A DNA stretch of 64,000 bases from Anaspis maculata (lineage: Eukaryota > Arthropoda > Insecta > Coleoptera > Scraptiidae): positions 130,079,050 through 130,143,049 of the forward strand of contig OX421961.1 of NCBI GenBank assembly GCA_949128115.1, read 5' to 3'. The position numbers were made by a program, and so were the translations under genes. How positions within the stretch are numbered: the first letter of the stretch is position 1; every line of letters begins with the position of its first letter. Positions 11,782 to 64,000 of this stretch are shown piece after piece. The notes beneath the pieces are model-generated. The model was given only the letters and a program-made list of their open reading frames with translations. It was not told the DNA's origin and made no database searches.

Positions 11782-11824
11782 TACTAGGTATGTAATGAAT
11801 CAATTATTATAGTGGTTGTAAGTA

Positions 11825-12642: not shown

Positions 12643-12650
12643 TAAACACT

Positions 12651-13733: not shown

Positions 13734-13740
13734 TTTGTGT

Positions 13741-13920
13741 TCGTTCGTCAGATGTTGCGTTTGGAACAAGTAGCTGCCCACATAAAAAGTGGTGACCGAT
13801 CGTTTCAAAAGTCACGTGGGTTGGGGCCTGAAGTCACGTGGGTTGAAGCCTGAAGTCACGTGGGTAAAAACCTGAACTTTTTGGATAACAATTGTGTCTT
13901 TAGTTTTTTTATATTTGTGT
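13741..13920 (+). repeat. First complete satellite monomer (180 bp, diverged)
   Basis: The first monomer from TTCGTTCG-type landmark to the next is 180 bp and has three 22-bp units. It carries private changes (GCCCACATAAAAAG where later copies have GCCAACATCAAAAG, and TTGGGGCC), consistent with an array edge that escapes homogenisation. Confidence 0.85.
13810..13875 (+). repeat. Example of the 22-bp CACGTG subrepeat, three tandem units
   Basis: Each unit begins GTCACGTGGG, continues TTGAAG and ends CCTGAA, 22 bp in all. Variants seen through the array include GTAACGTGGG and GTCATGTGGG (E-box destroyed), GTCACGTGAG, ATCACGTGGG and GTCACGTGGA. The final unit of a monomer usually reads TTAAAACC or TTCAAACC and leads into the AT-rich spacer. 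Confidence 0.93.
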
Positions 13921-16900
13921 TCGTTCGTCAGTTGTTGCGTTTGGAACAAGTAGCTGCCAACTCCAAAAGTGGTGACCGATCATTTTAAAAGTCACGTGGG
14001 TTGAAGCCTGAAGTCACGTGGGTTGAGGCCTGAAGTCACGTGGGTTAAAACCTGAACTTTTTGGATAACAATTGTGTCTTTAGTTTATTGATATTTGTGT
14101 TCGTTCGTCAGATGTTGCGTTTGGAACAAGTAGCTGCCAACTCCAAAAGTGGTGACCGATCGTTTCAAAAGTCACGTGGGTTGAAGCCTGGAGACACGTG
14201 GGTTGAAGCCTGAAGTCACGTGGGTTGAAGCCTGAACTTTTTGGATAACAATTGTGTCTTTTTTTTTGATATTTGTGTTCGTTCGTCAGATGTTGCGTTT
14301 GGAACAAGTAGCTGCCAACATCAAGAGTGGTGACCGATCGTTTTAAAAGTCACGTGGGTTGAAGCCTGAAGTCACGTGGGTTGGAGCCTGGAGTCACGTG
14401 GGTTCAAACCTGAACCTTTTGAATAACAATTTCGTCATTTTTTTTTGATATTTGTGTTCGTTCGTCGGATGTTGCGTTTGGAACAAGTAGCTGCCAACTC
14501 CAAAAGTGGTGACCGATCGTTTTAAAAGTCACGTGGGTTGAAGCCTGAAGTCACGTGGGTTGAAGTCTGAAGTCACGTGGGTTGAAGCCTGATGTCACGT
14601 GGGTTAAAACCTGAACTTTTTGGATAACAATTGTGTCTTTACTTCTATATTTGTGTTCGTTTGTCAGATGTTGCGTTTGGAACAAGTAGCTGCCAACTTC
14701 AAAAGTGGTGACCGATCGTTTTCAAAGTCACGTGGGTTGAAGCCTGAAGTAACGTGGGTTGAAGCCTGAAGTCACGTGGGTTAAAACCTGAACTTTTTGG
14801 ATAACAATTGTGTCTTTTCTTCTATATTTGTGTTCGTTCGTCAGATGTTGCGTTTGGAACAAGTAGCTGCCAACATCAGAAGTGGTGACCGATCGTTTCA
14901 AAAGTCACGTGGGTCGAAGCCTGAAGTCACGTGGGTTGGAGCCTGGAGTCACGTGGGTTCAAACCTGAACTTTTTGAATAACAATTTCGTCATTTTTTTT
15001 TTATATATGTGTTCGTTCGTCTGATGTTGCGTTTGGAACAAGTAGCTGCCAACTCCAAAAGTGGTGACCGATCGTTTTAAAAGTCACGTGGGTTGAAGCC
15101 TGGAGTCACGTGGGTTAAAACCTGGACTTTTTGGATAACAATTGTGTCTTTACTTCTATATTTGTGTTCGTTCGTCAGATGTTGCGTTTGGAACAAGTAG
15201 CTGCCAACATCAAAAGTGGTGACCGATCGTTTTAAAAGTCACGTGGGTTGAAGCCTGAAGTCACGTGGGTTGAAGCCTGAAGTCACGTGGGTTGAAACCT
15301 GAACTTTTTGGATAACAATTGTGTCTTTACTTCTATATTTGTGTTCGTTCGTCAGATGTTGCGTTTGGAACAAGTAGCTGCCAACATCAAAAGTGGTGAC
15401 CAATCGTTTTAAAAGTCACGTGGGTTGAAGCCTGAAGTCACGTGGGTTGGAGCCTGGAGTCACGTGGGTTCAAACCTGAAGTTTTTGGGTGACAATTGTG
15501 TCTTTTTTTCTATATTTGTGTTCGTTTGTCAGATGTTGCGTTTGGAAAGAGTAGCTGCCAACTTCAAAAGTGGTGACCGATCGTTTTAAAAGTCACGTGG
15601 GTTGAAGCCTGAAGTAACGTGGGTTGAAGCCTGGAGTCACGTGGGTTAAAACCTGAACTTTTTGGATGACAATTGTGTCTTTTCTTCTATATTTGTGTTC
15701 GTTCGTCAGATGTTGCGTTTGGAACAAGTAGCTGCCAACATCAGAAGTGGTGACCGATCGTTTCAAAAGTCACGTGGGTCGAAGCCTGAAGTCACGTGGG
15801 TTGAAGCCTGAAGTCACGTGGGTTGGAGCCTGGAGTCACGTGGGTTCAAACCTGAAGTTTTTGGGTAACAATTGTGTTTTTTTTCTATATTTTGTTCGTT
15901 CGTCAGATGTTGCGTTTGGAAAGAGTAGCTGCCAACTTCAAAAGTGGTGACCGATCGTTTCAAAAGTCACGTGGGTTGAAGCCTGGAGTCACGTGGGTTG
16001 GGGCCTGGAGTCACGTGGGCTCAAACCAGAACTTTTTGGATAACAATTGTGTCTTTTTTTCTTTATTTGTGTTCGTTCGTCAGATGTTGCGTTTGGAAAG
16101 AGAATCTAACAACTTCAAAAGTGGTGACCGATCGTTTTCAAAGTCACGTGGGTTGAAGCCTGAAGTAACGTGGGTTGGAGCCTGAAGTCACGTGGGTTAA
16201 AACCTGAACTTTTTGGATAACAATTGTGTCTTTTCTTCCATATTTGTGTTCGTTCGTCAGATGTTGCGTTTGGAACAAGTAGCTGCCAACATCAAAAGTG
16301 GTGACCGATCGTTTTAAAAGTCACGTGGGTTGAAGCCTGAAGTCACGTGGGTTGGAGCCTGGAGTCACGTGGGTTCAAACCTGAACTTTTTGAATAACAA
16401 TTCCGTCATTTTTGTTTTGATATTTGTGTTCGTTCGTCAGATGTTGCGTTTGGAACAAGTAGCTGCCATCTCCAAAAGTGGTGACCGATCGTTTTAAAAG
16501 TCACGTGGGTTGAAGCCTGGAGTCACGTGGGTTGAAGCCTGAAGTCACGTGGGTTGAAGCCTGAAATCACGTGGGTTAAAACCTGAACTTTTTGGATAAC
16601 AATTGTGTCTTTACTTCTATATTTGTGTTCGTTCGTCAGATGTTGCGTTTGGAACAAGTAGCTGCCAACATCAGAAGTGGTGACCGATCGTTTTAAAAGT
16701 CACGTGGGTCGAAGCCTGAAGTCACGTGGGTTGGAGCCTGGAGTCACGTGGGTTCAAACCTGAACTTTTTGAATAACAATTTCGTCATTTCTTTTGATAT
16801 TTGTTTTCGTTCGTCTGATGTTGCGTTTGGAACAAGTAGCTGCCAACTCCAAAAGTGGTGACCGATCGTTTTAAAAGTCACGTGGGTTGAAGCCTGAAGT

Positions 16901-17537
16901 CACGTGGGTTGAAGCCTGAAGTAACGTGGGTTGAAGCCTGGAGTCACGTGGGTTAAAACCTGAACTTTTTAGATAACAATTGTGTCTTTACTTCTATATT
17001 TGTGTTCGTTCGTCAGATGTTGCGTTTGGAACAAGTAGCTGCCAACATCAAAAGTGGTGACCGATCGTTTTAAAAGTCACGTGGGTTGAAGCCTGAAGTC
17101 ACGTGGGTTGGAGCCTGGAGTCACGTGGGTTCAAACCTGAAGTTTTTGGGTGACAATTGTGTATTTTTTTCTATATTTGTGTTCGTTCGTCAGATGTTGC
17201 GTTTGGAACAAGTAGCTGCCAACATCAGAAGTGGTGACCGATCGTTTTAAAAGTCACGTGGGTCGAAGCCTGAAGTCACGTGGGTTGGAGCCTGGAGTCA
17301 CGTGGGTTCAAACCTGAACTTTTTGAATAACAATTTCGTCATTTCTTTTGATATTTGTTTTCGTTCGTCTGATGTTGCGTTTGGAACAAGTAGCTGCCAA
17401 CTCCAAAAGTGGTGACCGATCGTTTTAAAAGTCACGTGGGTTGAAGCCTGAAGTCACGTGGGTTGAAGCCTGAAGTCACGTGGGTTAAAACCTGAACTTT
17501 TTGGATAACAATTGTGTCTTTACTTCTATATTTGTGT

Positions 17538-18646
17538 TCGTTCGTCAGATGTTGCGTTTGGAACAAGTAGCTGCCAACATCAAAAGTGGTGACCGATCGT
17601 TTTAAAAGTCACGTGGGTTGAAGCCTGAAGTCACGTGGGTTGGAGCCTGGAGTCACGTGGGTTCAAACCTGAACTTTTTGGATAACAATTGTGTTTTTTT
17701 TTTCTATATTTGTGTTCGTTCGTCAGATGTTGCGTTTGGAAAGAGTAGCTGCCAACTTCAAAAATGGTGACCGATCGTTTTCAAAGTCACGTGGGTTGAA
17801 GCCTGAAGTCACGTGAGTTGAAGCCTGAAGTCACGTGGGTTGAAGCCTGAAGTCACGTGGGTCAAAACCTGAACTTTTTGGATAACAATTGTGTCTTTTC
17901 TTTCATATTTGTGTTCGTTCGTCAGATGTTGCGTTTGGAACAAGTAGCTGCCAACATCAAAAGTGGTGACCGATCGTTTTAAAAGTCACGTGGGTTGAAG
18001 CCTGAAGTCACGTGGGTTGGAGCCTGGAGTCACGTGGGTTCAAACCTGAAGTTTTTGGGTGACAATTGTGTCTTTTTTTCTATATTTGTGTTCGTTTGTC
18101 AGATGTTGCGTTTGGAACAAGTAGCTGCCAACATCAAAAGTGGTGACCGATCGTTTTAAAAGTCACGTGGGTTGAAGCCTGAAGTCACGTGGGTTGGAGC
18201 CTGGAGTCACGTGGGTTCAAACCTGAACTTTTTGGATAACAATTGTGTTTTTTTTTTTCTATATTTGTGTTCGTTCGTCAGATGTTGCGTTTGGAAAGAG
18301 TAGCTGCCAACCTCAAAAATGGTGACCGATCGTTTTCAAAGTCACGTGGGTTGAAGCCTGAAGTCACGTGAGTTGAAGCCTGAAGTCACGTGGGTTGAAG
18401 CCTGAAGTCACGTGGGTCAAAACCTGAACTTTTTGGATAACAATTGTGTCTTTTCTTTCATATTTGTGTTCGTTCGTCAGATGTTGCGTTTGGAACAAGT
18501 AGCTGCCAACATCAAAAGTGGTGACCGATCGTTTTAAAAGTCACGTGGGTTGAAGCCTGAAGTCACGTGGGTTGGAGCCTGGAGTCACGTGGGTTCAAAC
18601 CTGAAGTTTTTGGGTGACAATTGCGTCTTTTTTCCTATATTTGTGT
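17538..18646 (+). repeat. Higher-order trimer, two tandem copies (about 554 bp each)
   Basis: Landmark spacings run 177, 198, 178 then 179, 199, 178 bp, so two trimers follow one another (17538-18090 and 18091-18646). The middle monomer of each carries AAAAATGGTGACC, an extra 22-bp unit with GTCACGTGAG, and follows a long T run. Confidence 0.85.
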
Positions 18647-19731
18647 TCGTTTGTCAGATGTTGCGTTTGGAAAGAGTAGCTGCCAACTTCAAAAGTGGTG
18701 ACCGATCGTTTTAAAAGTCACGTGGGTTGAAGCCTGAAGTCACGTGGGTTGGAGCCTGGAGTCACGTGGGTTCAAACCTGAAGTTTTTGGGTGACAATTG
18801 TGTCTTTTTTTCTATATTTGTGTTCGTTCGTCAGATGTTGCGTTTGGAACAAGTAGCTGCCAACATCAGAAGTGGTGACCGATCGTTTTAAAAGTCACGT
18901 GGGTCGAAGCCTGAAGTCACGTGGGTTGGAGCCTGGAGTCACGTGGGTTCAAACCTGAACTTTTTGAATAACAATTTCGTCATTTCTTTTGATATTTGTT
19001 TTCGTTCGTCTGATGTTGCGTTTGGAACAAGTAGCTGCCAACTCCAAAAGTGGTGACCGATCGTTTTAAAAGTCACGTGGGTTGAAGCCTGAAGTCACGT
19101 GGGTTGAAGCCTGAAGTAACGTGGGTTGAAGCCTGGAGTCACGTGGGTTAAAACCTGAACTTTTTAGATAACAATTGTGTCTTTACTTCTATATTTGTGT
19201 TCGTTCGTCAGATGTTGCGTTTGGAACAAGTAGCTGCCAACATCAAAAGTGGTGACCGATCGTTTTAAAAGTCACGTGGGTTGAAGCCTGAAGTCACGTG
19301 GGTTGGAGCCTGGAGTCACGTGGGTTCAAACCTGAAGTTTTTGGGTGACAATTGTGTCTTTTTTTCTATATTTGTGTTCGTTCGTCAGATGTTGCGTTTG
19401 GAACAAGTAGCTGCCAACATCAGAAGTGGTGACCGATCGTTTTAAAAGTCACGTGGGTCGAAGCCTGAAGTCACGTGGGTTGGAGCCTGGAGTCACGTGG
19501 GTTCAAACCTGAACTTTTTGAATAACAATTTCGTCATTTCTTTTGATATTTGTTTTCGTTCGTCTGATGTTGCGTTTGGAACAAGTAGCTGCCAACTCCA
19601 AAAGTGGTGACCGATCGTTTTAAAAGTCACGTGGGTTGAAGCCTGAAGTCACGTGGGTTGAAGCCTGAAGTCACGTGGGTTAAAACCTGAACTTTTTGGA
19701 TAACAATTGTGTCTTTACTTCTATATTTGTG

Positions 19732-20839
19732 TTCGTTCGTCAGATGTTGCGTTTGGAACAAGTAGCTGCCAACATCAAAAGTGGTGACCGATCGTTTTAA
19801 AAGTCACGTGGGTTGAAGCCTGAAGTCACGTGGGTTGGAGCCTGGAGTCACGTGGGTTCAAACCTGAACTTTTTGGATAACAATTGTGTTTTTTTTTTCT
19901 ATATTTGTGTTCGTTCGTCAGATGTTGCGTTTGGAAAGAGTAGCTGCCAACTTCAAAAATGGTGACCGATCGTTTTCAAAGTCACGTGGGTTGAAGCCTG
20001 AAGTCACGTGAGTTGAAGCCTGAAGTCACGTGGGTTGAAGCCTGAAGTCACGTGGGTCAAAACCTGAACTTTTTGGATAACAATTGTGTCTTTTCTTTCA
20101 TATTTGTGTTCGTTCGTCAGATGTTGCGTTTGGAACAAGTAGCTGCCAACATCAAAAGTGGTGACCGATCGTTTTAAAAGTCACGTGGGTTGAAGCCTGA
20201 AGTCACGTGGGTTGGAGCCTGGAGTCACGTGGGTTCAAACCTGAAGTTTTTGGGTGACAATTGTGTCTTTTTTTCTATATTTGTGTTCGTTTGTCAGATG
20301 TTGCGTTTGGAACAAGTAGCTGCCAACATCAAAAGTGGTGACCGATCGTTTTAAAAGTCACGTGGGTTGAAGCCTGAAGTCACGTGGGTTGGAGCCTGGA
20401 GTCACGTGGGTTCAAACCTGAACTTTTTGGATAACAATTGTGTTTTTTTTTTCTATATTTGTGTTCGTTCGTCAGATGTTGCGTTTGGAAAGAGTAGCTG
20501 CCAACTTCAAAAATGGTGACCGATCGTTTTCAAAGTCACGTGGGTTGAAGCCTGAAGTCACGTGAGTTGAAGCCTGAAGTCACGTGGGTTGAAGCCTGAA
20601 GTCACGTGGGTCAAAACCTGAACTTTTTGGATAACAATTGTGTCTTTTCTTTCATATTTGTGTTCGTTCGTCAGATGTTGCGTTTGGAACAAGTAGCTGC
20701 CAACATCAAAAGTGGTGACCGATCGTTTTAAAAGTCACGTGGGTTGAAGCCTGAAGTCACGTGGGTTGGAGCCTGGAGTCACGTGGGTTCAAACCTGAAG
20801 TTTTTGGGTGACAATTGCGTCTTTTTTTCTATATTTGTG
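19732..20839 (+). repeat. Second pair of 554-bp trimers
   Basis: Landmarks at 19732, 19910, 20109, 20286, 20464, 20663 and 20840 reproduce the 178-199-177 pattern twice. The pair lies 2,194 bp downstream of the pair at 17,538, giving a larger repeat of about 2.2 kb. Confidence 0.85.
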
Positions 20840-21016
20840 TTCGTTTGTCAGATGTTGCGTTTGGAAAGAGTAGCTGCCAACTTCAAAAGTGGTGACCGAT
20901 CGTTTTAAAAGTCACGTGGGTTGAAGCCTGAAGTCACGTGGGTTGGAGCCTGGAGTCACGTGGGTTCAAACCTGAAGTTTTTGGGTGACAATTGTGTCTT
21001 TTTTTCTATATTTGTG

Positions 21017-23550
21017 TTCGTTCGTCAGATGTTGCGTTTGGAACAAGTAGCTGCCAACATCAGAAGTGGTGACCGATCGTTTCAAAAGTCACGTGGATCG
21101 AAGCCTGAAGTCACGTGGGTTGAAGCCTGAAGTCACGTGGGTTGGAGCCTGGAGTCACGTGGGTTCAAACCTGAAGTTTTTGGGTAACAATTGTGTTTTT
21201 TTTCTATATTTTGTTCGTTCGTCAGATGTTGCGTTTGGAAAGAGTAGCTGCCAACTTCAAAAGTGGTGACCGATCGTTTCAAAAGTCACGTGGGTTGAAG
21301 CCTGGAGTCACGTGGGTTGGGGCCTGGAGTCACGTGGGCTCAAACCAGAACTTTTTGGATAACAATTGTGTCTTTTTTTCTTTATTTGTGTTCGTTCGTC
21401 AGATGTTGCGTTTGGAAAGAGAATCTAACAACTTCAAAAGTGGTGACCGATCGTTTTCAAAGTCACGTGGGTTGAAGCCTGAAGTAACGTGGGTTGGAGC
21501 CTGAAGTCACGTGGGTTGAAACCTGAACTTTTTGGATAACAATTGTGTCTTTTCTTCCATATTTGTGTTCGTTCGTCAGATGTTGCGTTTGGAACAAGTA
21601 GCTGCCAACATCAAAAGTGGTGACCGATCGTTTTAAAAGTCACGTGGGTTGAAGCCTGAAGTCACGTGAGTTGGAGCCTGGAGTCACGTGGGTTCAAACC
21701 TGAACTTTTTGAATAACAATTCCGTCATTTTTGTTTTGATATTTGTGTTCGTTCGTCAGATGTTGCGTTTGGAACAAGTAGCTGCCATCTCCAAAAGTGG
21801 TGACCGATCGTTTTGAAAGTCACGTGGGTTGAAGCCTGGAGTCACGTGGGTTGAAGCCTGAAGTCACGTGGGTTGAAGCCTGAAATCACGTGGGTTAAAA
21901 CCTGAACTTTTTGGATAACAATTGTGTCTTTACTTCTATATTTGTGTTCGTTCGTCAGATGTTGCGTTTGGAACAAGTAGCTGCCAACATCAAAAGTGGT
22001 GACCGATCGTTTTAAAAGTCACGTGGGTTGAAGCCTAAAGTCACGTGGGTTGGAGCCTGGAGTCACGTGGGTTCAAACCTGAAGTTTTTGGGTGACAATT
22101 GTGTCTTTTTTTCTATATTTGTGTTCGTTCGTCAGATGTTGCGTTTGGAACAAGTAGCTGCCAACATCAGAAGTGGTGACCGATCGTTTTAAGAGTCACG
22201 TGGGTCGAAGCCTGAAGTCACGTGGGTTGGAGCCTGGAGTCACGTGGGTTCAAACCTGAACTTTTTGAATAACAATTTCGTCATTTCTTTTGATATTTGT
22301 TTTCGTTCGTCTGATGTTGCGTTTGGAACAAGTAGCTGCCAACTCCAAAAGTGGTGACCGATCGTTTTAAAAGTCACGTGGGTTGAAGCCTGAAGTCACG
22401 TGGGTTGAAGCCTGAAGTCACGTGGGTTAAAACCTGAACTTTTTGGATAACAATTGTGTCTTTACTTCTATATTTGTGTTCGTTCGTCAGATGTTGCGTT
22501 TGGAACAAGTAGCTGCCAACATCAAAAGTGGTGACCGATCGTTTTAAAAGTCACGTGGGTTGAAGCCTGAAGTCACGTGGGTTGGAGCCTGGAGTCACGT
22601 GGGTTCAAACCTGAACTTTTTGGATAACAATTGTGTTTTTTTTCTTCTATATTTGTGTTCGTTCGTCAGATGTTGCGTTTGGAAAGAGTAGCTGCCAACT
22701 TCAAAAATGGTGACCGATCGTTTTCAAAGTCACGTGGGTTGAAGCCTGAAGTCACGTGAGTTGAAGCCTGAAGTCACGTGGGTTGAAGCCTGAAGTCACG
22801 TGGGTCAAAACCTGAACTTTTTGGATAACAATTGTGTCTTTTCTTTCATATTTGTGTTCGTTCGTCAGATGTTGCGTTTGGAACAAGTAGCTGCCAACAT
22901 CAAAAGTGGTGACCGATCGTTCTAAAAGTCACGTGGGTTGAAGCCTGAAGTCACGTGGGTTGGAGCCTGGAGTCACGTGGGTTCAAACCTGAACTTTTTG
23001 AATAACAATTTTGTCATTTTTGTTTTGATATTTGTGTTCGTTCGTCAGATGTTGCGTTTGGAACAAGTAGCTGCCATCTCCAAAAGTGGTGACCGATCGT
23101 TTTGAAAGTCACGTGGGTTGAAGCCTGGAGTCACGTGGGCTGAAGCCTGAAGTCACGTGGGTTGAAGCCTGAAATCACGTGGGTTAAAACCTGAACTTTC
23201 TGGATAACAATTGTGTCTTTACTTCTATATTTGTGTTCGTTCGTCAGATGTTACGTTTGGAACAAGTAGCTGCCAACATCAAAAGTGGTGACCGATCGTT
23301 TTAAAAGTCACGTGGGTTGAAGCTTGAAGTCACGTGGGTTGGAGCCTGGAGTCACGTGGGTTCAATCCTGAACTTTTTGGATAACAATTGTGTCTTTTTT
23401 TATATATTTGTGTTCGTTCGTCAGATGTTGCGTTTGGTAAGGGTAGCAGCCAACTTCAAAAATGGTGACCGATCGTTTTCAAAGTCACGTGGGTTGGAGC
23501 CTGAAGTCACGTGGGTTGAAACCTGAAGTCACGTGGGTTAAAACCTGAAC
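21017..23550 (+). repeat. Copy 1 of a block repeated about 6.7 kb downstream
   Basis: A distinctive monomer order (GTTTTTTTTCTATATTTTGTTCG short spacer; then AGAGAATCTAACAACTTC; later the GAAGCTTGAAG and GGTAAGGGTAGCAGCC variants) occurs here and again from about 27,734 to 30,270, with an offset of 6,715-6,717 bp. The same starting monomers also occur at about 15,700, 34,230, 46,860 and 53,550. Confidence 0.75.
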
Positions 23551-23949
23551 TTTTTGGATAACAAATTTGTCTTTTCTTCTATATTTGTGTTCGTTCGTCA
23601 GATGTTGCGTTTGGAACAAGTAGCTGCCAACATCAAAAGTGGTGACCGATCGTTTTAAGAGTCACGTGGGTTGAAGCCTGAAGTCACGTGGGTTGGAGCC
23701 TGGAGTCATGTGGGTTCAAACCTGAACTTTTTGGATAACAATGGTGTCTTTTCTTCTATATTTGTGTTCGTTCGTCAGATGTTGCGTTTGGAACAAGTAG
23801 CTGCCAACATCAGAAGTGGTGACCGATCGTTTTAAAAGTCACGTGGGTTCAAGCCTGAAGTCACGTGGGTTGGAGCCTGGAGTCACGTGGGTTCAAACCT
23901 GAACTTTTTGGATAACAATTGTGTCTTTTTTTCTATTATTGTGTTCGTT

Positions 23950-25900
23950 CGTCAGATGTTGCGTTTGGAGAGAGTAGCTGCCAACTTCAAAAGTGGTGAC
24001 CGATCGTTCTCAAAGTCACGTGGGTTGAAGCCTGAAGTCACGTGGGTTGAAGCCTGAAGTAACGTGGGTTGAAGCCTGAAGTCACGTGGGTTAAAACCTG
24101 AACTTTTTGGATAACAATTGTGTCTTTTCTTCTATATTTGTGTTCGTTCGTCAGATGTTGCGTTTGGAACAAGTAGCTGCCAACATCAGAAGTGGTGACC
24201 GATCGTTTTAAAAGTCACGTGGGTCGAAGCCTGAAGTCACGTGGGTTGGAGCCTGGAGTCACGTGGGTTCAAACCTGAATTTTTTGAATAACAATTTCGT
24301 CATTTTTTTTTTATATTTGTGTTCGTTCGTCAGATTTTGCGTTTGGAACAAGTAGCTGCCAACTCCAAAAGTGGTGACCGATCGTTTCAAAAATCACGTG
24401 GGTTGAAGCCTGAAGTCACGTGGGTTGAAGCCTGAAGTCACGTGGGTTAAAACCCGAACTTTTTGGATAAAAATTGTGTCTTTACTTCTATATTTGTGTA
24501 AGTTCGTCAGATGTTGCGTTTGGAACAAGTAGCTGCCAACATCAAAAGCGGTGACCGATCGTTTTAAAAGTCACGTGGGTTGATGCCTGAAGTCACGTGG
24601 GTTGAAGCCTGGAGTCACGTGGGTTCAAACCTGAACTTTTTGGGTAACAATTGTGTCTTTTTTTCTATATTTGTGTTCGTTCGTCAGATGTTGCGTTTGG
24701 AAAGAGTAGCTGCCAACTTCAAAAGTGGTGACCGATCGTTTTAAAAGTCACGTGGGTTGAAGCCTGAAGTAACGTGGGTTGAAGCCTGAAGTCACGTGGG
24801 TTAAAACCTGAACTTTTTGGATAACAATTGTGTCTTTTCTTCTATATTTGTGTTCGTTCGTCAGATGTTGCGTTTGGAACAAGTAGCTGCCAACATCAGA
24901 AGTGGTGACCGATCGTTTTAAAAGTCACGTGGGTCGAAGCCTGAAGTCACGTGGGTTGAAGCCTAAAGTCACGTGGATTGAAGCCTGAAGTCACGTGGGT
25001 TAAAACCTGAACTTTTTGGATAACAATTGTGTCTTTTCTTATAAATTTGTGTTCGTTCGTCAGATGTTGCGTTTGGAAAGAGTAGCTGCCAACTTCAAAA
25101 GTGGTGACCGATCGTTTTCAAAGTCACGTGGGTTGAAGCCTGAAGTAACGTGGGTTGAAGCCTGAAGTCACGTGGGTTAAAACCTGAACTTTTTGGATAA
25201 CAATTGTGTCTTTTCTTCTATATTTGTGTTCGTTCGTCAGATGTTGCGTTTGGAACAAGTAGCTGCCAACATCAGAAGTGGTGACCGATCGTTTCAAAAG
25301 TCACGTGGGTCGAAGCCTGAAGTCACGTGGGTTGGAGCCTGGAGTCACGTGGGTTCAAACCTGAACTTTTTGAATAACAATTTCGTCATTTTTTTTTGAT
25401 ATTTGTGTTCGTTCGTCTGATGTTGCGTTTGGAACAAGTAGCTGCCAACTCCAAAAGTGGTGACCGATCGTTTTAAAAGTCACGTGGGTTGAAGCCTGAA
25501 GTCACGTGGGTTAAAACCTGGACTTTTTGGATAACAATTGTGTCTTTACTTCTATATTGGTGTTCGTTCGTCAGATGTTGCGTTTGGAACAAGTAGCTGC
25601 CAACATCAAAAGTGGTGACCGATCGTTTTAAAAGTCACGTGGGTTGAAGCCTGAAGTCACGTGGGTTGAAGCCTGATGTCACGTGGGTTGAAACCTGAAC
25701 TTTTTGGATAACAATTGTGTCTTTACTTCTATATTTGTGTTCGTTCGTCAGATGTTGCGTTTGGAACAAGTAGCTGCCAACATCAAAAGTGGTGACCAAT
25801 CGTTTTAAAAGTCACGTGGGTTGAAGCCTGAAGTCACGTGGGTTGGAGCCTGGAGTCACGTGGGTTCAAACCAGAACTTTTTGGATAACAATTGTGTCTT
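23950..25900 (+). repeat. Block duplicated at about 47,250-49,200 (offset about 23.3 kb)
   Basis: The rare spacer TTTGTGTAAGTTCGTCAG occurs only at about 24,499 and 47,791, in the same monomer context. The offset is 23,292 before and 23,314 after a 22-bp unit that is present in the right copy only. Landmarks at 25,193 and 48,507 agree. Confidence 0.78.
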
Positions 25901-51984: not shown

Positions 51985-54900
51985 GGTGACCGATCGTTTT
52001 AAAAGTCACGTGGGTCGAAGCCTGAAGTCACGTGGGTTGGAGCCTGGAGTCACGTGGGTTCAAACCTGAACTTTTTGAATAACAATTTCGTCATTTCTTT
52101 TGATATTTTTTTTCGTTCGTCTGATGTTGCGTTTGGAACAAGTAGCTGCCAACTCCAAAAGTGGTGACCGATCGTTTTAAAAGTCACGTGGGTTGAAGCC
52201 TGGAGTCACGTGGGTTGAAGCCTGAAGTCACGTGGGTTAAAACCTGAACTTTTTGGATAACAATTGTGTCTTTACTTCTATATTTGTGTTCGTTCGTCAG
52301 ATGTTGCGTTTGGAACAAGTAGCTGCCAACATCAAAAGTGGTGACCGATCGTTTTAAAAGTCACGTGGGTTGAAGCCTGAAGTCACGTGGGTTGGAGCCT
52401 GGAGTCACGTGGGTTCAAACCTGAAGTTTTTGGGTGACAATTGTGTCTTTTTTTCTATATTTGTGTTCGTTCGTCAGATGTTGCGTTTGGAACAAGTAGC
52501 TGCCAACATCAGAAGTGGTGACCGATCGTTTTAAAAGTCACGTGGGTCGAAGCCTGAAGTCACGTGGGTTGGAGCCTGGAGTCACGTGGGTTCAAACCTG
52601 AACTTTTTGAATAACAATTTCGTCATTTCTTTTGATATTTGTTTTCGTTCGTCTGATGTTGCGTTTGGAACAAGTAGCTGCCAACTCCAAAAGTGGTGAC
52701 CGATCGTTTTAAAAGTCACGTGGGTTGAAGCCTGGAGTCACGTGGGTTGAAGCCTGAAGTCACGTGGGTTAAAACCTGAACTTTTTGGATAACAATTGTG
52801 TCTTTACTTCTATATTTGTGTTCGTTCGTCAGATGTTGCGTTTGGAACAAGTAGCTGCCAACATCAAAAGTGGTGACCGATCGTTTTAAAAGTCACGTGG
52901 GTTAAAGCCTGAAGTCACGTGGGTTGGAGCCTGGAGTCACGTGGGTTCAAACCTGAACTTTTTGGATAACAATTGTGTTTTTTTTTTCTATATTTGTGTT
53001 CGTTCGTCAGATGTTGCGTTTGGAAAGAGTAGCTGCCAACTTCAAAAATGGTGACCGATCGTTTTCAAAGTCACGTGGGTTGAAGCCTGAAGTCACGTGA
53101 GTTGAAGCCTGAAGTCACGTGGGTTGAAGCCTGAAGTCACGTGGGTCAAAACCTGAACTTTTTGGATAACAATTGTGTCTTTTCTTTCATATTTGTGTTC
53201 GTTCGTCAGATGTTGCGTTTGGAACAAGTAGCTGCCAACATCAAAAGTGGTGACCGATCGTTTTAAAAGTCACGTGGGTTGAAGCCTGAAGTCACGTGGG
53301 TTGGAGCCTGGAGTCACGTGGGTTCAAACCTGAAGTTTTTGGGTGACAATTGTGTCTTTTTTTCTATATTTGTGTTCGTTTGTCAGATGTTGCGTTTGGA
53401 AAGAGTAGCTGCCAACTTCAAAAGTGGTGACCGATCGTTTTAAAAGTCACGTGGGTTGAAGCCTGAAGTAACGTGGGTTGAAGCCTGGAGTCACGTGGGT
53501 TAAAAACTGAACTTTTTGGATGACAATTGTGTCTTTTCTTCTGTATTTGTGTTCGTTCGTCAGATGTTGCGTTTGGAACAAGTAGCTGCCAACATCAGAA
53601 GTGGTGACCGATCGTTTCAAAAGTCACGTGGGTCGAAGCCTGAAGTCACGTGGGTTGAAGCCTGAAGTCACGTGGGTTGGAGCCTGGAGTCACGTGGGTT
53701 CAAACCTGAAGTTTTTGGGTAACAATTGTGTTTTTTTCTATATTTTGTTCGTTCGTCAGATGTTGCGTTTGGAAAGAGTAGCTGCCAACTTCAAAAGTGG
53801 TGACCGATCGTTTCAAAAGTCACGTGGGTTGAAGCCTGGAGTCACGTGGGTTGGGGCCTGGAGTCACGTGGGCTCAAACCAGAACTTTTTGGATAACAAT
53901 TGTGTCTTTTTTTCTTTATTTGTGTTCGTTCGTCAGATGTTGCGTTTGGAAAGAGAATCTAACAACTTCAAAAGTGGTGACCGATCGTTTTCAAAGTCAC
54001 GTGGGTTGAAGCCTGAAGTAACGTGGGTTGGAGCCTGAAGTCACGTGGGTTAAAACCTGAACTTTTTGGATAACAATTGTGTCTTTTCTTCCATATTTGT
54101 GTTCGTTCGTCAGATGTTGCGTTTGGAACAAGTAGCTGCCAACATCAAAAGTGGTGACCGATCGTTTTAAAAGTCACGTGGGTTGAAGCCTGAAGTCACG
54201 TGAGTTGGAGCCTGGAGTCACGTGGGTTCAAACCTGAACTTTTTGAATAACAATTCCGTCATTTTTGTTTTGATATTTGTGTTCGTTCGTCAGATGTTGC
54301 GTTTGGAACAAGTAGCTGCCATCTCCAAAAGTGGTGACCGATCGTTTTAAAAGTCACGTGGGTTGAAGCCTGGAGTCACGTGGGTTGAAGCCTGAAGTCA
54401 CGTGGGTTGAAGCCTGAAATCACGTGGGTTAAAACCTGAACTTTTTGGATAACAATTGTGTCTTTACTTCTATATTTGTGTTCGTTCGTCAGATGTTGCG
54501 TTTGGAACAAGTAGCTGCCAACATCAAAAGTGGTGACCGATCGTTTTGAAAGTCACGTGGGTTGAAGCCTGAAGTCACGTGGGTTGGAGCCTGGAGTCAC
54601 GTGGGTTCAAACCTGAAGTTTTTGGGTGACAATTGTGTCTTTTTTCCTATATTTGTGTTCGTTCGTCAGATGTTGCGTTTGGAACAAGTAGCTGCCAACA
54701 TCAGAAGTGGTGACCGATCGTTTTAAAAGTCACGTGGGTCGAAGCCTGAAGTCACGTGGGTTGGAGCCTGGAGTCACGTGGGTTCAAACCTGAACTTTTT
54801 GAATAACAATTTCGTCATTTCTTTTGATATTTGTTTTCGTTCGTCTGATGTTGCGTTTGGAACAAGTAGCTGCCAACTCCAAAAGTGGTGACCGATCGTT

Positions 54901-57900
54901 TTAAAAGTCACGTGTGTTGAAGCCTGAAGTCACGTGGGTTAAAGCCTGAAGTCACGTGGGTTAAAACCTGAACTTTTTGGATAACAATTGTGTCTTTACT
55001 TCTATATTTGTGTTCGTTCGTCAGATGTTGCGTTTGGAACAAGTAGCTGCCAACATCAAAAGTGGTGACCGATCGTTTTAAAAGTCACGTGGGTTGAAGC
55101 CTGAAGTCACGTGGGTTGGAGCCTGGAGTCACGTGGGTTCAAACCTGAACTTTTTGGATAACAATTGTGTTTTTTTTTTCTATATTTGTGTTCGTTCGTC
55201 AGATGTTGCGTTTGGAAAGAGTAGCTGCCAACTTCAAAAATGGTGACCGATCGTTTTCAAAGTCACGTGGGTTGAAGCCTGAAGTCACGTGAGTTGAAGC
55301 CTGAAGTCACGTGGGTTGAAGCCTGAAGTCACGTGGGTCAAAACCTGAACTTTTTGGATAACAATTGTGTCTTTTCTTTCATATTTGTGTTCGTTCGTCA
55401 GATGTTGCGTTTGGAACAAGTAGGTAGCTGCCAACATCAAAAGTGGTGACCGATCGTTTTAAAAGTCACGTGGGTTGAAGCCTGAAGTCACGTGGGTTGG
55501 AGCCTGGAGTCACGTGGGTTCAAACCTGAACTTTTTGAATAACAATTTTGTCATTTTTGTTTTGATATTTGTGTTCGTTCGTCAGATGTTGCGTTTGGAA
55601 CAAGTAGCTGCCATCTCCAAAAGTGGTGACCGATCGTTTTAAAAGTCACGTGGGTTGAAGCCTGGAGTCACGTGGGTTGGAGCCTGAAGTCACGTGGGTT
55701 GAAGCCTGAAATCACGTGGGTTAAAACCTGAACTTTCTGGATAACAATTGTGTCTTTACTTCTATATTTTTGTCCGTTCGTCAGATGTTACGTTTGGAAC
55801 AAGTAGCTGCCAACATCAAAAGTGGTGACCGATCGTTTTAAAAGTGACGTGGGTTGAAGCTTGAAGTCACGTGGGTTGGAGCCTGGAGTCACGTGGGTTC
55901 AATCCTGAACTTTTTGGATAACAATTGTGTCTTTTTTTCTATATTTGTGTTCGTTCGTCAGATGTTGCGTTTGGAGAGAGTAGCTGCCAACTTCAAAAGT
56001 GGTGACCGATCGTTCTCAAAGTCACGTGGGTTGAAGCCTGAAGTCACGTGGGTTGAAGCCTGAAGTAACGTGGGTTGAAGCCTGAAGTCACGTGGGTTAA
56101 AACCTGAACTTTTTGGATAACAATTGTGTCTTTTCTTCTATATTTGTGTTCGTTCGTCAGATGTTGCGTTTGGAACAAGTAGCTGCCAACATCAGAAGTG
56201 GTGACCGATCGTTTTAAAAGTCACGTGGGTCGAAGCCTGAAGTCACGTGGGTTGGAGCCTGGAGTCACGTGGGTTCAAACCTGAATTTTTTGAATAACAA
56301 TTTCGTCATTTTTTTTTTATATTTGTGTTCGTTCGTCAGATTTTGCGTTTGGAACAAGTAGCTGCCAACTCCAAAAGTGGTGACCGATCGTTTCAAAAAT
56401 CACGTGGGTTGAAGCCTGAAGTCACGTGGGTTGAAGCCTGAAGTCACGTGGGTTAAAACCCGAACTTTTTGGATAAAAATTGTGTCTTTACTTCTATATT
56501 TGTGTTCGTTCGTCAGATGTTGCGTTTGGAACAAGTAGCTGCCAACATCAAAAGCGGTGACCGATCGTTTTAAAAGTCACGTGGGTTGAAGCCTGAAGTC
56601 ACGTGGGTTGAAGCCTGAAGTCACGTGGGTTGAAGCCTGGAGTCACGTGGGTTCAAACCTGAAGTCACGTGGGTTAAAACCTGAACTTTTTGGGTAACAA
56701 TTGTGTCTTTTTTTCTATATTTGTGTTCGTTCGTCAGATGTTGCGTTTGGAAAGAGTAGCTGCCAACTTCAAAAGTGGTGACCGATCGTTTTAAAAGTCA
56801 CGTGGGTTGAAGCCTGAAGTAACGTGAGTTGAAGCCTGAAGTCACGTGGGTTAAAACCTGAACTTTTTGGATAACAATTGTGTCTTTTCTTCTATATTTG
56901 TGTTCGTTCGTCAGATGTTGCGTTTGGAACAAGTAGCTGCCAACATCAGAAGTGGTGACCGATCGTTTTAAAAGTCACGTGGGTCGAAGCCTGAAGTCAC
57001 GTGGGTTGAAGCCTAAAGTCACGTGGATTGAAGCCTGAAGTCACGTGGGTTAAAACCTGAACTTTTTGGATAACAATTGTGTCTTTTTTTATAAATTTGT
57101 GTTCGTTCGTCAGATGTTGCGTTTGGAAAGAGTAGCTGCCAACTTCAAAAGTGGTGACCGATCGTTTTCAAAGTCACGTGGGTTGAAGTCTGAAGTAACG
57201 TGGGTTGAAGCCTGAAGTCACGTGGGTTAAAACCTGAACTTTTTGGATAACAATTGTGTCTTTTCTTCTATATTTGTGTTCGTTCGTCAGATGTTGCGTT
57301 TGGAACAAGTAGCTGCCAACATCAGAAGTGGTGACCGATCGTTTCAAAAGTCACGCGGGTTGAAGCCTGAAGTCACGTGGGTTAAAACCTGGACTTTTTG
57401 GATAACAATTGTGTCTTTACTTCTATATTGGTGTTCGTTCGTCAGATGTTGCGTTTGGAACAAGTAGCTGCCAACATCAAAAGTGGTAACCGATCGTTTT
57501 AAAAGTCACGTGGGTTGAAGCCTGAAGTCACGTGGGTTAAAACCTGGACTTTTTGGATAACAATTGTGTCTTTACTTCTATATTGGTGTTCGTTCGTCAG
57601 ATGTTGCGTTTGGAACAAGTAGCTGCCAACATCAAAAGTGGTGACCGATCGTTTTAAAAGTCACGTGGGTTGAAGCCTGAAGTCACGTGGGTTGAAGCCT
57701 GATGTCACGTGGGTTGAAACCTGAACTTTTTGGATAACAATTGTGTCTTTACTTCTATATTTGTGTTCGTTCGTCAGATGTTGCGTTTGGAACAAGTAGC
57801 TGCCAACATCAAAAGTGGTGACCAATCGTTTTAAAAGTCACGTGGGTTGAAGCCTGAAGTCACGTGGGTTGGAGCCTGGAGTCACGTGGGTTCAAACCTG

Positions 57901-60900
57901 AACTTTTTGGGTGACAATTGTGTCTTTTTTTCTATATTTGTGTTCGTTCGTCAGATGTTGCGTTTGGAAAGAGTAGCTGCCAACTTCAAAAGTGGTGACC
58001 GATCGTTTTAAAGGTCACGTGGGTTGAAGCCTGAAGTAACGTGGGTTGAAGCCTGGAGTCACGTGGGTTAAAACCTGAACTTTTTGGATGACAATTGTGT
58101 CTTTTCTTCTATATTTGTGTTCGTTCGTCAGATGTTGCGTTTGGAACAAGTAGCTGCCAACATCAAAAGTGGTGACCGATCGTTTTAAAAGTCACGTGGG
58201 TTGAAGCTTGAAGTCACGTGGGTTGGAGCCTGGAGTCACGTGGGTTCAATCCTGAACTTTTTGGATAACAATTGTGTCTTTTTTTATATATTTGTGATCG
58301 TTCGTCAGATGTTGCGTTTGGTAAGGGTAGCTGCCAACTTCAAAAATGGTGACCGATCGTTTTCAAAGTCACGTGGGTTGGAGCCTGAAGTCACGTGGGT
58401 TGAAACCTGAAGTCACGTGGGTTAAAACCTGAACTTTTTGGATAACAAATTTGTCTTTTCTTCTATATTTGTGTTCGTTCGTCAGATGTTGCGTTTGGAA
58501 CAAGTAGCTGCCAACATCAAAAGTGGTGACCGATCGTTTTAAGAGTCACGTGGGTTGAAGCCTGAAGTCACGTGGGTTGGAGCCTGGAGTCATGTGGGTT
58601 CAAACCTGAACTTTTTGGATAACAATGGTGTCTTTTCTTCTATATTTGTGTTCGTTCGTCAGATGTTGCGTTTGGAACAAGTAGCTGCCAACATCAAAAG
58701 TGGTGACCGATCGTTTTAAAAGTCACGTGGGTTCAAGCCTGAAGTAACGTGGGTTGGAGCCTGGAGTCACGTGGGTTCAAACCTGAACTTTTTGGATAAC
58801 AATTGTGTCTTTTTTTCTATATTTGTGTTCGTTCGTCAGATGTTGCGTTTGGAGAGAGTAGCTGCCAACTTCAAAAGTGGTGACCGATCGTTCTCAAAGT
58901 CACGTGGGTTGAAGCCTGAAGTCACGTGGGTTGAAGCCTGAAGTAACGTGGGTTGGAGCCTGGAGTCACGTGGGTTCAAACCTGAATTTTTTGAATAACA
59001 ATTTCGTCATTTTTTTTTTATATTTGTGTTCGTTCGTCAGATTTTGCGTTTGGAACAAGTAGCTGCCAACTCCAAAAGTGGTGACCGATCGTTTTAAAAA
59101 TCACGTGGGTTGAAGCCTGAAGTCACGTGGGTTGAAGCCTGAAGTCACGTGGGTTAAAACCCGAACTTTTTGGATAAAAATTGTGTCTTTACTTCTATAT
59201 TTGTGTTCGTTCGTCAGATGTTGCGTTTGGAACAAGTAGCTGCCAACATCAAAAGCGGTGACCGATCGTTTTAAAAGTCACGTGGGTTGAAGCCTGAAGT
59301 CACGTGGGTTGAAGCCTGGAGTCACGTGGGTTCAAACCTGAAGTCACGTGAGTTAAAACCTGAACTTTTTGGGTAACAATTGTGTCTTTTTTTCTATATT
59401 TGTGTTCGTTCGTCAGATGTTGCGTTTGGAAAGAGTAGCTGCCAACTTCAAAAGTGGTGACCGATCGTTTTAAAAGTCACGTGGGTTGAAGCCTGGAGTC
59501 ACGTGGGTTGAAGCCTGAAGTCACGTGGGTTGAAGCCTGAAGTCACGTGGGTTAAAACCTGAACTTTTTGGATAACAATTGTGTCTTTACTTCTATATTT
59601 GTGTTCGTTCGTCAGATGTTGCGTTTGGAACAAGTAGCTGCCAACATCAAAAGTGGTGACCGATCGTTTTAAAAGTCACGTGGGTTGAAGCCTGAAGTCA
59701 CGTGGGTTGGAGCCTGGAGTCACGTGGGTTCAAACCTGAACTTTTTGGATAACAATTGTGTTTTTTTTTTCTATATTTGTGTTCGTTCGTCAGATGTTGC
59801 GTTTGGAAAGAGTAGCTGCCAACTTCAAAAATGGTGACCGATCGTTTTCAAAGTCACGTGGGTTGAAGCCTGAAGTCACGTGAGTTGAAGCCTGAAGTCA
59901 CGTGGGTTGAAGCCTGAAGTCACGTGGGTCAAAACCTGAACTTTTTGGATAACAATTGTGTCTTTTCTTTCATATTTGTGTTCGTTCGTCAGATGTTGCG
60001 TTTGGAACAAGTAGCTGCCAACATCAAAAGTGGTGACCGATCGTTTTAAAAGTCACGTGGGTTGAAGCCTGAAGTCACGTGGGTTGGAGCCTGGAGTCAC
60101 GTGGGTTCAAACCTGAACTTTTTGAATAACAATTTTGTCATTTTTGTTTTGATATTTGTGTTCGTTCGTCAGATGTTGCGTTTGGAACAAGTAGCTGCCA
60201 TCTCCAAAAGTGGTGACCGATCGTTTTAAAAGTCACGTGGGTTGAAGCCTGGAGTCACGTGGGTTGGAGCCTGAAGTCACGTGGGTTGAAGCCTGAAATC
60301 ACGTGGGTTAAAACCTGAACTTTCTGGATAACAATTGTGTCTTTACTTCTATATTTTTGTTCGTTCGTCAGATGTTACGTTTGGAACAAGTAGCTGCCAA
60401 CATCAAAAGTGGTGACCGATCGTTTTAAAAGTCACGTGGGTTGAAGCTTGAAGTCACGTGGGTTGGAGCCTGGAGTCACGTGGGTTCAATCCTGAACTTT
60501 TTGGATAACAATTGTGTCTTTTTTTCTATATTTGTGTTCGTTCGTCAGATGTTGCGTTTGGAGAGAGTAGCTGCCAACTTCAAAAGTGGTGACCGATCGT
60601 TCTCAAAGTCACGTGGGTTGAAGCCTGAAGTCACGTGGGTTGAAGCCTGAAGTAACGTGGGTTGAAGCCTGAAGTCACGTGGGTTAAAACCTGAACTTTT
60701 TGGATAACAATTGTGTCTTTTCTTCTATATTTGTGTTCGTTTGTCAGATGTTGCGTTTGGAACAAGTAGCTGCCAACATCAGAAGTGGTGACCGATCGTT
60801 TTAAAAGTCACGTGGGTCGAAGCCTGAAGTCACGTGGGTTGGAGCCTGGAGTCACGTGGGTTCAAACCTGAATTTTTTGAATAACAATTTCGTCATTTTT

Positions 60901-63900
60901 TTTTTATATTTGTGTTCGTTCGTCAGATTTTGCGTTTGGAACAAGTAGCTGCCAACTCCAAAAGTGGTGACCGATCGTTTCAAAAATCACGTGGGTTGAA
61001 GCCTGAAGTCACGTGGGTTGAAGCCTGAAGTCACGTGGGTTAAAACCCGAACTTTTTGGATAAAAATTGTGTCTTTACTTCTATATTTGTGTTCGTTCGT
61101 CAGATGTTGCGTTTGGAACAAGTAGCTGCCAACATCAAAAGCGGTGACCGATCGTTTTAAAAGTCACGTGGGTTGAAGCCTGAAGTCACGTGGGTTGAAG
61201 CCTGAAGTCACGTGGGTTGAAGCCTGGAGTCACGTGGGTTCAAACCTGAAGTCACGTGGGTTAAAACCTGAACTTTTTGGGTAACAATTGTGTCTTTTTT
61301 TCTATATTTGTGTTCGTTCGTCAGATGTTGCGTTTGGAAAGAGTAGCTGCCAACTTCAAAAGTGGTGACCGATCGTTTTAAAAGTCACGTGGGTTGAAGC
61401 CTGAAGTAACGTGGGTTGAAGCCTGAAGTCACGTGGGTTAAAACCTGAACTTTTTGGATAACAATTGTGTCTTTTCTTCTATATTTGTGTTCGTTCGTCA
61501 GATGTTGCGTTTGGAACAAGTAGCTGCCAACATCAGAAGTGGTGACCGATCGTTTTAAAAGTCACGTGGGTCGAAGCCTGAAGTCACGTGGGTTGAAGCC
61601 TAAAGTCACGTGGATTGAAGCCTGAAGTCACGTGGGTTAAAACCTGAACTTTTTGGATAACAATTGTGTCTTTTTTTATAAATTTGTGTTCGTTCGTCAG
61701 ATGTTGCGTTTGGAAAGAGTAGCTGCCAACTTCAAAAGTGGTGACCGATCGTTCTCAAAGTCACGTGGGTTGAAGTCTGAAGTAACGTGGGTTGAAGCCT
61801 GAAGTCACGTGGGTTAAAACCTGAACTTTTTGGATAACAATTGTGTCTTTTCTTCTATATTTGTGTTCGTTCGTCAGATGTTGCGTTTGGAACAAGTAGC
61901 TGCCAACATCAGAAGTGGTGACCGATCGTTTCAAAAGTCACGTGGGTTGAAGCCTGAAGTCACGTGGGTTAAAACCTGGACTTTTTGGATAACAATTGTG
62001 TCTTTACTTCTATATTGGTGTTCGTTCGTCAGATGTTGCGTTTGGAACAAGTAGCTGCCAACATCAAAAGTGGTAACCGATCGTTTTAAAAGTCACGTGG
62101 GTTGAAGCCTGAAGTCACGTGGGTTAAAACCTGGACTTTTTGGATAACAATTGTGTCTTTACTTCTATATTGGTGTTCGTTCGTCAGATGTTGCGTTTGG
62201 AACAAGTAGCTGCCAACATCAAAAGTGGTGACCGATCGTTTTAAAAGTCACGTGGGTTGAAGCCTGAAGTCACGTGGGTTGAAGCCTGATGTCACGTGGG
62301 TTGAAACCTGAACTTTTTGGATAACAATTGTGTCTTTACTTCTATATTTGTGTTCGTTCGTCAGATGTTGCGTTTGGAACAAGTAGCTGCCAACATCAAA
62401 AGTGGTGACCAATCGTTTTGAAAGTCACGTGGGTTGAAGCCTGAAGTCACGTGGGTTGGAGCCTGGAGTCACGTGGGTTCAAACCTGAACTTTTTGGGTG
62501 ACAATTGTGTCTTTTTTTCTATATTTGTGTTCGTTCGTCAGATGTTGCGTTTGGAAAGAGTAGCTGCCAACTTCAAAAGTGGTGACCGATCGTTTTAAAG
62601 GTCACGTGGGTTGAAGCCTGAAGTAACGTGGGTTGAAGCCTGGAGTCACGTGGGTTAAAACCTGAACTTTTTGGATGACAATTGTGTCTTTTCTTCTATA
62701 TTTGTGTTCGTTCGTCAGATGTTGCGTTTGGAACAAGTAGCTGCCAACATCAAAAGTGGTGACCGATCGTTTTAAAAGTCACGTGGGTTGAAGCTTGAAG
62801 TCACGTGGGTTGGAGCCTGGAGTCACGTGGGTTCAATCCTGAACTTTTTGGATAACAATTGTGTCTTTTTTTATATATTTGTGATCGTTCGTCAGATGTT
62901 GCGTTTGGTAAGGGTAGCTGCCAACTTCAAAAATGGTGACCGATCGTTTTCAAAGTCACGTGGGTTGGAGCCTGAAGTCACGTGGGTTGAAACCTGAAGT
63001 CACGTGGGTTAAAACCTGAACTTTTTGGATAACAAATTTGTCTCTTCTTCTATATTTGTGTTCGTTCGTCAGATGTTGCGTTTGGAACAAGTAGCTGCCA
63101 ACATCAAAAGTGGTGACCGATCGTTTTAAGAGTCACGTGGGTTGAAGCCTGAAGTCACGTGGGTTGGAGCCTGGAGTCATGTGGGTTCAAACCTGAACTT
63201 TTTGGATAACAATGGTGTCTTTTCTTCTATATTTGTGTTCGTTCGTCAGATGTTGCGTTTGGAACAAGTAGCTGCCAACATCAAAAGTGGTGACCGATCG
63301 TTTCAAAAATCACGTGGGTTGAAGCCTGAAGTCACGTGGGTTGGAGCCTGAAGTCACGTGGGTTAAAACCCGAACTTTTTGGATAAAAATTGTGTCTTTA
63401 CTTCTATATTTGTGTTCGTTCGTCAGATGTTGCGTTTGGAACAAGTAGCTGCCAACATCAAAAGCGGTGACCGATCGTTTTAAAAGTCACGTGGGTTGAA
63501 GCCTGAAGTCACGTGGGTTGAAGCCTGGAGTCACGTGGGTTCAAACCTGAAGTCACGTGAGTTAAAACCTGAACTTTTTGGGTAACAATTGTGTCTTTTT
63601 TTCTATATTTGTGTTCGTTCGTCAGATGTTGCGTTTGGAAAGAGTAGCTGCCAACTTCAAAAGTGGTGACCGATCGTTTTAAAAGTCACGTGGGTTGAAG
63701 CCTGAAGTAACGTGGGTTGAAGCCTGAAGTCACGTGGGTTAAAACCTGAACTTTTTGGATAACAATTGTGTCTTTTCTTCTATATTTGTGTTCGTTCGTC
63801 AGATGTTGCGTTTGGAACAAGTAGCTGCCAACATCAGAAGTGGTGACCGATCGTTTCAAAAGTCACGTGGGTCGAAGCCTGAAGTCACGTGGGTTGGAGC

Positions 63901-64000
63901 CTGGAGTCACGTGGGTTCAAACCTGAACTTTTTGAATAACAATTTCGTCATTTTTTTTCGATATTTGTGTTCGTTCGTCTGATGTTGCGTTTGGAACAAG
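51985..64000 (+). repeat. Right copy of the 19.3-kb-offset duplication, cut by the window edge
   Basis: This copy matches 32,660-45,600 in monomer order with sparse substitutions (for example TTTTTGTCCGTTCG near 55,770 against TTTTTGTTCGTTCG near 36,447, and a GTGACGTGGG at about 55,845). It lacks a 554-bp trimer present near 40.4-41.0 kb and a 378-bp pair of monomers present near 44.5-44.9 kb. Confidence 0.85.

Follow-up and report, generated by a model that had tools for sequence, protein, structure and literature searches.

A long satellite array of the false flower beetle Anaspis maculata raises the question of whether the palindrome CACGTG (E-box), which recurs in nearly every one of its short units, is kept by a DNA-binding protein or was simply copied along with the rest of the repeat. 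We investigated this in a window of 64,000 nucleotides (C1:130,079,050–130,143,049) of a genome assembly of 757,842,296 bases in 50 contigs, of which contig C1 spans 141.8 Mb. In kind, the repeat is a beetle subtelomeric satellite. Our leading reading, held tentatively, is that it carries a constrained USF-type site and would serve as a binding platform or sink for a basic helix-loop-helix leucine zipper (bHLH-ZIP) dimer.

Array structure and E-box abundance

The satellite occupies the + strand from position 13,732 to the window end (64,000) as a single head-to-tail tandem array, and sampling beyond the window indicates that it is part of a block of about 557 kb extending past the window. A preliminary description of this DNA had placed the end correctly and the start at 13,734. 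Within the window, 277 anchor matches bound 276 full monomers, each consisting of a 111-bp backbone and two to five units of 22 bp, with small length variation in a T-rich tail. The commonest monomer length was 177 bp (134/276); 53 of the 276 measured 199 bp, and most others differed from 155, 177 or 199 bp by no more than a few bases. The head was 72 bp long in 274 monomers and 76 bp in two, and the unit cluster was followed by a tail of 36–42 bp with the T-rich run. Three units per monomer were most frequent (n = 197), followed by four (n = 61), two (n = 13) and five (n = 5), a range that the preliminary description had given, and neighbouring units were spaced by 22 bp in all 610 cases. The first full monomer (13,738–13,917, + strand, 180 bp) contains a 72-bp head, three 22-bp units of the AGTCACGTGGGTTGAAGCCTGA type (13,810–13,875, + strand) with E-boxes at 13,813, 13,835 and 13,857, and the tail. 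The octamer GTCACGTG, exemplified at 13,811–13,818 (+ strand), occurs 804 times on the + strand of the array.

Among the 886 units of the window array, 831 contained CACGTG, 48 AACGTG, five CATGTG, one GACGTG and one CACGCG, and the context GTCACGTGGG was exact around 771 of the 831 E-boxes. The last unit of a cluster had a signature of its own, mostly TTAAAACC or TTCAAACC. The array therefore does hold CACGTG in almost all units in a fixed context, and hundreds of perfect E-boxes over 50 kb (831 in 50,269 bases), as had been described. Its density is 16.5 per kb, whereas the first 13,731 bases of the window have four occurrences in all. Over the whole window CACGTG occurs 835 times, while 100 dinucleotide shuffles averaged 22.5 and never exceeded 36. 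Genome-wide counts were 492,341 for CACGTG against 99,141 for its reversed control and, for GTCACGTG, 384,826 against 12,026. Counting CACGTG against a shuffled control and the genome, as the preliminary description had proposed, thus gave strong enrichment over both, and perfect factor sites are present at high density above control.

CACGTG densities were 16.4 per kb in samples of the C1 block and 15.5 per kb in subtelomeric samples, and the excess of CACGTG over control gave a satellite size of 24.0 or 25.4 Mb. The 20-mer GTCACGTGGGTTGAAGCCTG, with 128,007 occurrences genome-wide and a density of 0.33–6.6 per kb among arrays, gave 21.6 or 34.9 Mb. We estimate that the satellite makes up about 3% of the genome and contains about four fifths of all perfect CACGTG, a share taken as the excess over the reversed control. 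On the same basis, perfect CACGTG would be about four times as numerous inside the satellite as outside it.

The long head-to-tail arrays and non-coding monomers are those of satellite DNA, and several other descriptions of the array were rejected. A coding array was not supported (longest stop-free run, 150 amino acids), nor was an origin of the backbone from decayed 22-bp units, for which the best match was 10 (forward) or 11 (reverse) of 22 positions against shuffled means of 10.7 and 10.4. The CENP-B box NTTCGNNNNANNCGGGN of centromeric satellites had no match at two or fewer mismatches on either strand of the doubled consensus. Single-strand fold-back, computed for one monomer with DNA parameters, was unremarkable (z = +0.60; 140 of 200 shuffles folded at least as well). 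A ribosomal DNA spacer or RNA gene cluster was rejected on zero Rfam matches in the window and in five further loci (L042, L043, L039, L084 and L087). Exact repeat pieces were also sought in viral contigs, with counts of 0 and 0.

Sequence change within the unit

Only 127 of the 276 monomers were distinct, and runs of 8–38 monomers (each with at most three edits) were repeated at lags of 2.2–32.5 kb; therefore, copies in the array are not independent. When minor alleles of first, middle and last units were summed in the window, the E-box was the six-column phase with the fewest (4, against 5–21 in other phases). The difference between the E-box and the rest of the unit was significant (Fisher, p = 0.0006 for all alleles and 0.002 for alleles of 15 or fewer copies). 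We also counted changes along spanning trees at successive limits. In a tree of the 78 distinct three-unit monomers of the window, the E-box had 2, 4 and 5 changes against 7.4, 15.4 and 21.0 (p = 0.047, 0.009 and 0.001; rank 1, 1 and 3 of 22 phases).

Larger sets gave a similar picture. For the C1 block, 795 of 802 monomers were retained after overlapping sources had been removed, including 300 distinct three-unit monomers. Here the E-box had 6, 12, 28 and 37 changes, whereas 18 random other columns had 19.1, 29.6, 56.9 and 69.4 (p = 0.010, 0.004, 0.005 and 0.008 at the four limits), and it ranked first of 22 phases throughout; against triples of 6-base windows, p was 0.030, 0.004, 0.009 and 0.022. 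The subtelomeric tree, built from five 6-kb stretches and locus L039 (158 of 159 monomers; 114 distinct with three units), gave 3, 12, 13 and 13 changes against 10.3, 37.1, 49.5 and 56.8. The corresponding p values were 0.022, 0.002 and 0.0001, with 0 of 50,000 draws as low at the last limit, and the E-box ranked second at the tightest limit and first at the other three. The low-change block, delimited after looking, was AGTCACGTG, excluding the GGG behind it. Its events per column were 6.9 against 15.5 for the rest of the unit in the C1 block (p = 0.003) and 2.7 against 12.2 in the subtelomeric set (p = 0.00015).

Divergence among 22 samples from different places averaged 1.8% in E-box columns and 9.4% in other unit columns, the latter falling to 5.8% after four columns picked as class-variable (13, 14, 16 and 21) were dropped. 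The preliminary description had named, among the findings that would speak against a role for the motif, relatives whose homologous satellite keeps the monomer while lacking CACGTG. Within this genome, diverged subtelomeric copies keep CACGTG in 136 of 151 units (the 22 samples), and in the subtelomeric set CACGTG was found in 449 of 486 units, with 14 more reading one base off. Given intact flanks, CACGTG was intact in 128,007 of 135,400 cases genome-wide (94.5%), compared with 54,194 of 63,118 (85.9%) for CAATTG, a palindrome in the monomer tail; this control window and a second one, GCGTTT, were chosen by the analyst. The minor-allele and tree tests support constraint on the octamer relative to its unit. 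Because the octamer changes less than the rest of the unit, we read this as probable constraint by a DNA-binding protein.

Chromosome ends and candidate factors

Of the 16 chromosome ends, 11 had the satellite in our samples, and each of the eight large contigs had at least one satellite end. These results come from 400-base stretches, of which 18 lay towards left ends and 22 towards or at right ends. In the left-end set 11 of 18 samples contained satellite (C1, C2, C4, C5, C7 and C9), and in the right-end set 10 of 22 (C1, C3, C4, C5 and C6); arrays thus lie near the ends of many chromosomes, as expected of a subtelomeric satellite. The few samples taken at the left ends of C3 (two) and C6 (one) and at the right ends of C2 (three), C7 (two) and C9 (two) had none, and neither did the first 700 bases of the eight large contigs (0/8). 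By its length, C9 corresponds to the X chromosome of the A. maculata assembly in PMC11252652. In contig C50 (16,310 bases), nad2 was most similar to that of Scraptia (77%) and Anaspis (72%). Satellite-bearing samples were oriented on the + strand in 10 of 11 cases at left ends and on the − strand in 10 of 10 at right ends. The last 400 bases of C1 were telomere-like, and (TCAGG)n or its complement was found at 6 of the 16 contig ends read (left of C5 and C9; right of C1, C4, C7 and C9).

The window itself belongs to an interstitial block about 11 Mb from the C1 end, contig interiors having been sampled at few places. The extent of this block was derived from sampled stretches: same-strand satellite was present in samples from 130.09 to 130.65 Mb, with the last anchor at 130,649,316, and stretches at 130.70, 130.80, 131.0 and 135.0 Mb were non-satellite. 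Within the block, about 15.5 kb (C1:130,624,605–130,640,183) lacked satellite anchors.

Some further features of the ends were observed. An inversion junction lies inside the satellite near the C1 left end, at about 58.4 kb (L039). Between the start of C1 and its satellite, CACGTG recurs every 2,251–2,252 bases (C1:386–25157), a 2.25-kb period; translated pieces of the C1 start were found again in the C2 start, which the C11 start also resembles. The unplaced contig C10 (298 kb) starts in satellite (L051). On the minus strand, the 22-bp unit contains the telomere pentamer TCAGG in the orientation that the telomere has at right ends; constraint on this pentamer within the unit was rejected, as the TCAGG columns change often.

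The site in the satellite reads GT-CACGTG-GG, with GT on one side only. According to passages of PMC8431614, USF favours a GT on the 5' side, MYC-MAX does not, and a 5' T discriminates Cbf1 from Pho4 and Max from Myc. Since the site has the 5' GT flank, USF/MITF-type dimers or Max homodimers would fit better than Myc-Max, which narrows the list of bHLH and bHLH-ZIP factors in the preliminary description. Genome-wide, 52 helix-loop-helix (HLH) exon matches exceeded the family cut-off, and 20 small stretches were retrieved from these 52 places. One of them encodes a USF-like exon, with USF2 8ia3 (E = 6.5e-22) and USF 1an4 (E = 8.6e-21) as best PDB matches, and another a MITF-like exon that matched MITF (E = 3.4e-20). 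Three further E-box-type HLH candidates (L118, L130 and L135) were recognized by eye. Judging from these exons, the genome encodes suitable USF-like and MITF-like proteins, which are candidate binders. Given the 5' GT flank, a constraining protein would most probably be a bHLH-ZIP dimer of the USF or MITF/TFE type.

Competing explanations, known parallels and the left edge

The favoured reading would work as follows. At chromosome ends, the satellite would be amplified and kept uniform by unequal exchange together with segmental amplification, both inside single arrays and from one array to another, and a USF- or MITF/TFE-type bHLH-ZIP dimer would bind the octamers GTCACGTG of the monomer. The 22-bp spacing is about two helix turns, placing octamers near the same helix face. 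Binding would make the blocks at chromosome ends a large sink or platform and restrain change in the octamer. Amplification is observed in the window's array as duplicated multi-kb runs; the exchange mechanism, binding in vivo and the platform or sink effect are what we infer. In a stronger version, which we consider unlikely, a general bHLH-ZIP factor would have been taken over as a structural protein of the subtelomere, much as Cbf1 was at yeast centromeres, and the length of the subtelomeres would determine how much of the factor stays free. A haploid genome would then carry several hundred thousand USF-type sites at its chromosome ends, which by excess over control are about 97% of all GTCACGTG.

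A number of results weigh against this reading. In a copy-weighted, flank-conditioned test of 177 windows, the three E-boxes ranked 1, 20 and 113 in the window array and 2, 98 and 119 in the remaining C1 block. A single E-box was scored in subtelomeric samples, where it ranked 14 of 101; several backbone windows were 100% intact in this test. The low ranks probably arise because variants such as AACGTG were amplified, and the amplification of this E-box-less variant (48/886 units) is itself a point on the same side. Genome-wide, the backbone control GCGTTT was intact in 50,743 of 54,487 cases (93.1%), near the value of the E-box. Parts of the backbone are thus equally well kept, and within the monomer the E-box does not stand alone in its conservation. 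Rare alleles alone gave no significant difference, with p = 0.16 (Fisher, alleles of three or fewer copies) and 0.27. The window-only tree reached p = 0.047 at the tightest limit and 0.067 against window triples, and the E-box was third of 22 phases at the widest limit. Spanning-tree changes are also non-independent, the monomers being linked by conversion. Two places depart from the polarity rule: C5 at 60 kb is on the − strand, and L039, at the C1 left end, changes from − in its outer half to + in its inner half. Finally, a bHLH expansion was rejected, as the 52 HLH exon matches, presumably not an unusual number, gave no sign of an expansion to match the satellite.

Almost as likely as the favoured reading is that the satellite is passive: an ancestral unit would have happened to hold CACGTG, which was then copied hundreds of thousands of times by amplification and homogenisation and now lies in silent chromatin with no consequential binding. 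The recent multi-kb segmental amplification, with its long duplicated runs and few distinct monomers, counts for this explanation, as do the amplified E-box-less variant, the backbone windows as invariant as the E-box and the GCGTTT control at 93.1%. According to passages of PMC4242493, human Myc-Max occupancy tracks RNA polymerase II better than CACGTG; therefore, closed chromatin could leave nearly all sites empty. Passive copying does not account well for the changes per column in AGTCACGTG, which fall short of those in the rest of the unit by a factor of about two in the C1 block and nearly five in the subtelomeric set, or for the E-box phase being the lowest of 22 in both array sets at seven of eight limits.

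Two other explanations are far less probable. The E-box cluster might be the promoter of satellite transcription, at which a bHLH factor would initiate RNA synthesis from the monomers, with RNA or small-RNA products maintaining subtelomeric chromatin. The clustering of E-boxes at a fixed 22-bp spacing ahead of a T-rich tail would suit a promoter, and HSF1-driven satellite RNA is a precedent; the longest stop-free run of 150 amino acids and the lack of an Rfam match in the window argue against it, and we consider it improbable. Least probable, by a little, is that the octamer is kept by a cause other than a bHLH protein, either another DNA-binding protein or a recombination-promoting motif that drives its own homogenisation; the spread of satellites through recombination is established and counts for it, as does the low-change block AGTCACGTG being asymmetric and wider than the E-box. 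This block, however, includes the GT-flanked E-box that USF prefers according to PMC8431614 in the part cited above. The lack of a CENP-B-box-like match at two or fewer mismatches in the consensus also counts against a non-bHLH cause.

The proposed site has a counterpart in budding yeast. Cbf1 is a bHLH-ZIP homodimer, and the consensus of the CDEI element, RTCACRTG, agrees with GTCACGTG. Weak matches to Cbf1 chains (E = 3e-4) were likewise obtained with the USF-like exon of the beetle. As presented in the relevant part of PMC13079627, CDEI is likewise a short chromosomal element bound by a homodimer, but there is one site per point centromere and no satellite, whereas the sampled Anaspis arrays lie at chromosome ends. 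Alpha satellite resembles the present case in holding sites for a factor, C/EBPalpha, that it is able to sequester (Liu et al. 2007, described in part of PMC12085094). It differs in the factor, in its centromeric location and in that sequestration was reported from experiment (PMC12085094, same part). In Drosophila, a sequence-specific DNA-binding protein, Kipferl, and satellites compete over the chromatin factor Rhino; Kipferl differs in being a zinc-finger protein whose GRGGN motif is absent from AT-rich satellites of Drosophila (both points from passages of PMC9531945). Henosepilachna argus likewise has a tandem satellite near beetle chromosome ends, as judged from the title of Mora et al. 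(2017), cited in PMC13192020. Our literature search met no report of an E-box cluster in a beetle subtelomeric satellite and none on Anaspis satellite DNA.

Because the satellite holds, by excess over control, about four times the CACGTG of the rest of the genome, any bHLH factor reading GTCACGTG must cope with it, whether the arrays are compacted, the factor is made in larger amounts or the bound ends are put to use. Individuals or species whose subtelomeres differ in length could then also differ in the action of a basic regulator. Assembled genomes of unequal size are available for two relatives, given in abstracts as 808.55 Mb for A. frontalis and 457.61 Mb for A. regimbarti, and these assemblies make a coupling of satellite and factor directly testable.

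The left edge of the array coincides with a common insertion that resembles a miniature inverted-repeat transposable element (MITE). This 1.08-kb MITE-like element (12,653–13,731, no strand assigned) abuts the array exactly; it has ends CCGG with TA on either side, and its inverted arms of 315 nucleotides are 82% complementary. Of 6,775 first-look candidates genome-wide, 40 were scored: copies at 36 of these places are close to full length, 39 other than the present one show 90–98% identity, and all lie on C1, C3, C4, C5, C6, C7 or C9 (seven of the eight large contigs). Satellite remnants to the left were rejected, as a search with 40 of the 276 monomers gave nothing better than a 25-base match at E = 0.007. 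Next to the MITE-like element lies a second one (11,823–12,644), whose short inverted ends are TAGGGGAGACCGGGGC. Farther left, a reverse-transcriptase-like fragment (7,176–8,090, − strand) had a zf-RVT match below the cut-off, and its queried part (7,176–8,000) had no homologue at E = 0.001; a THAP-domain fragment lies at 93–620 (− strand). In addition, an open frame of 659 amino acids (1,144–3,123, + strand) contains 13 matched C2H2 stretches in 93-bp tandem repeats, and its eight best homologues are beetle proteins.

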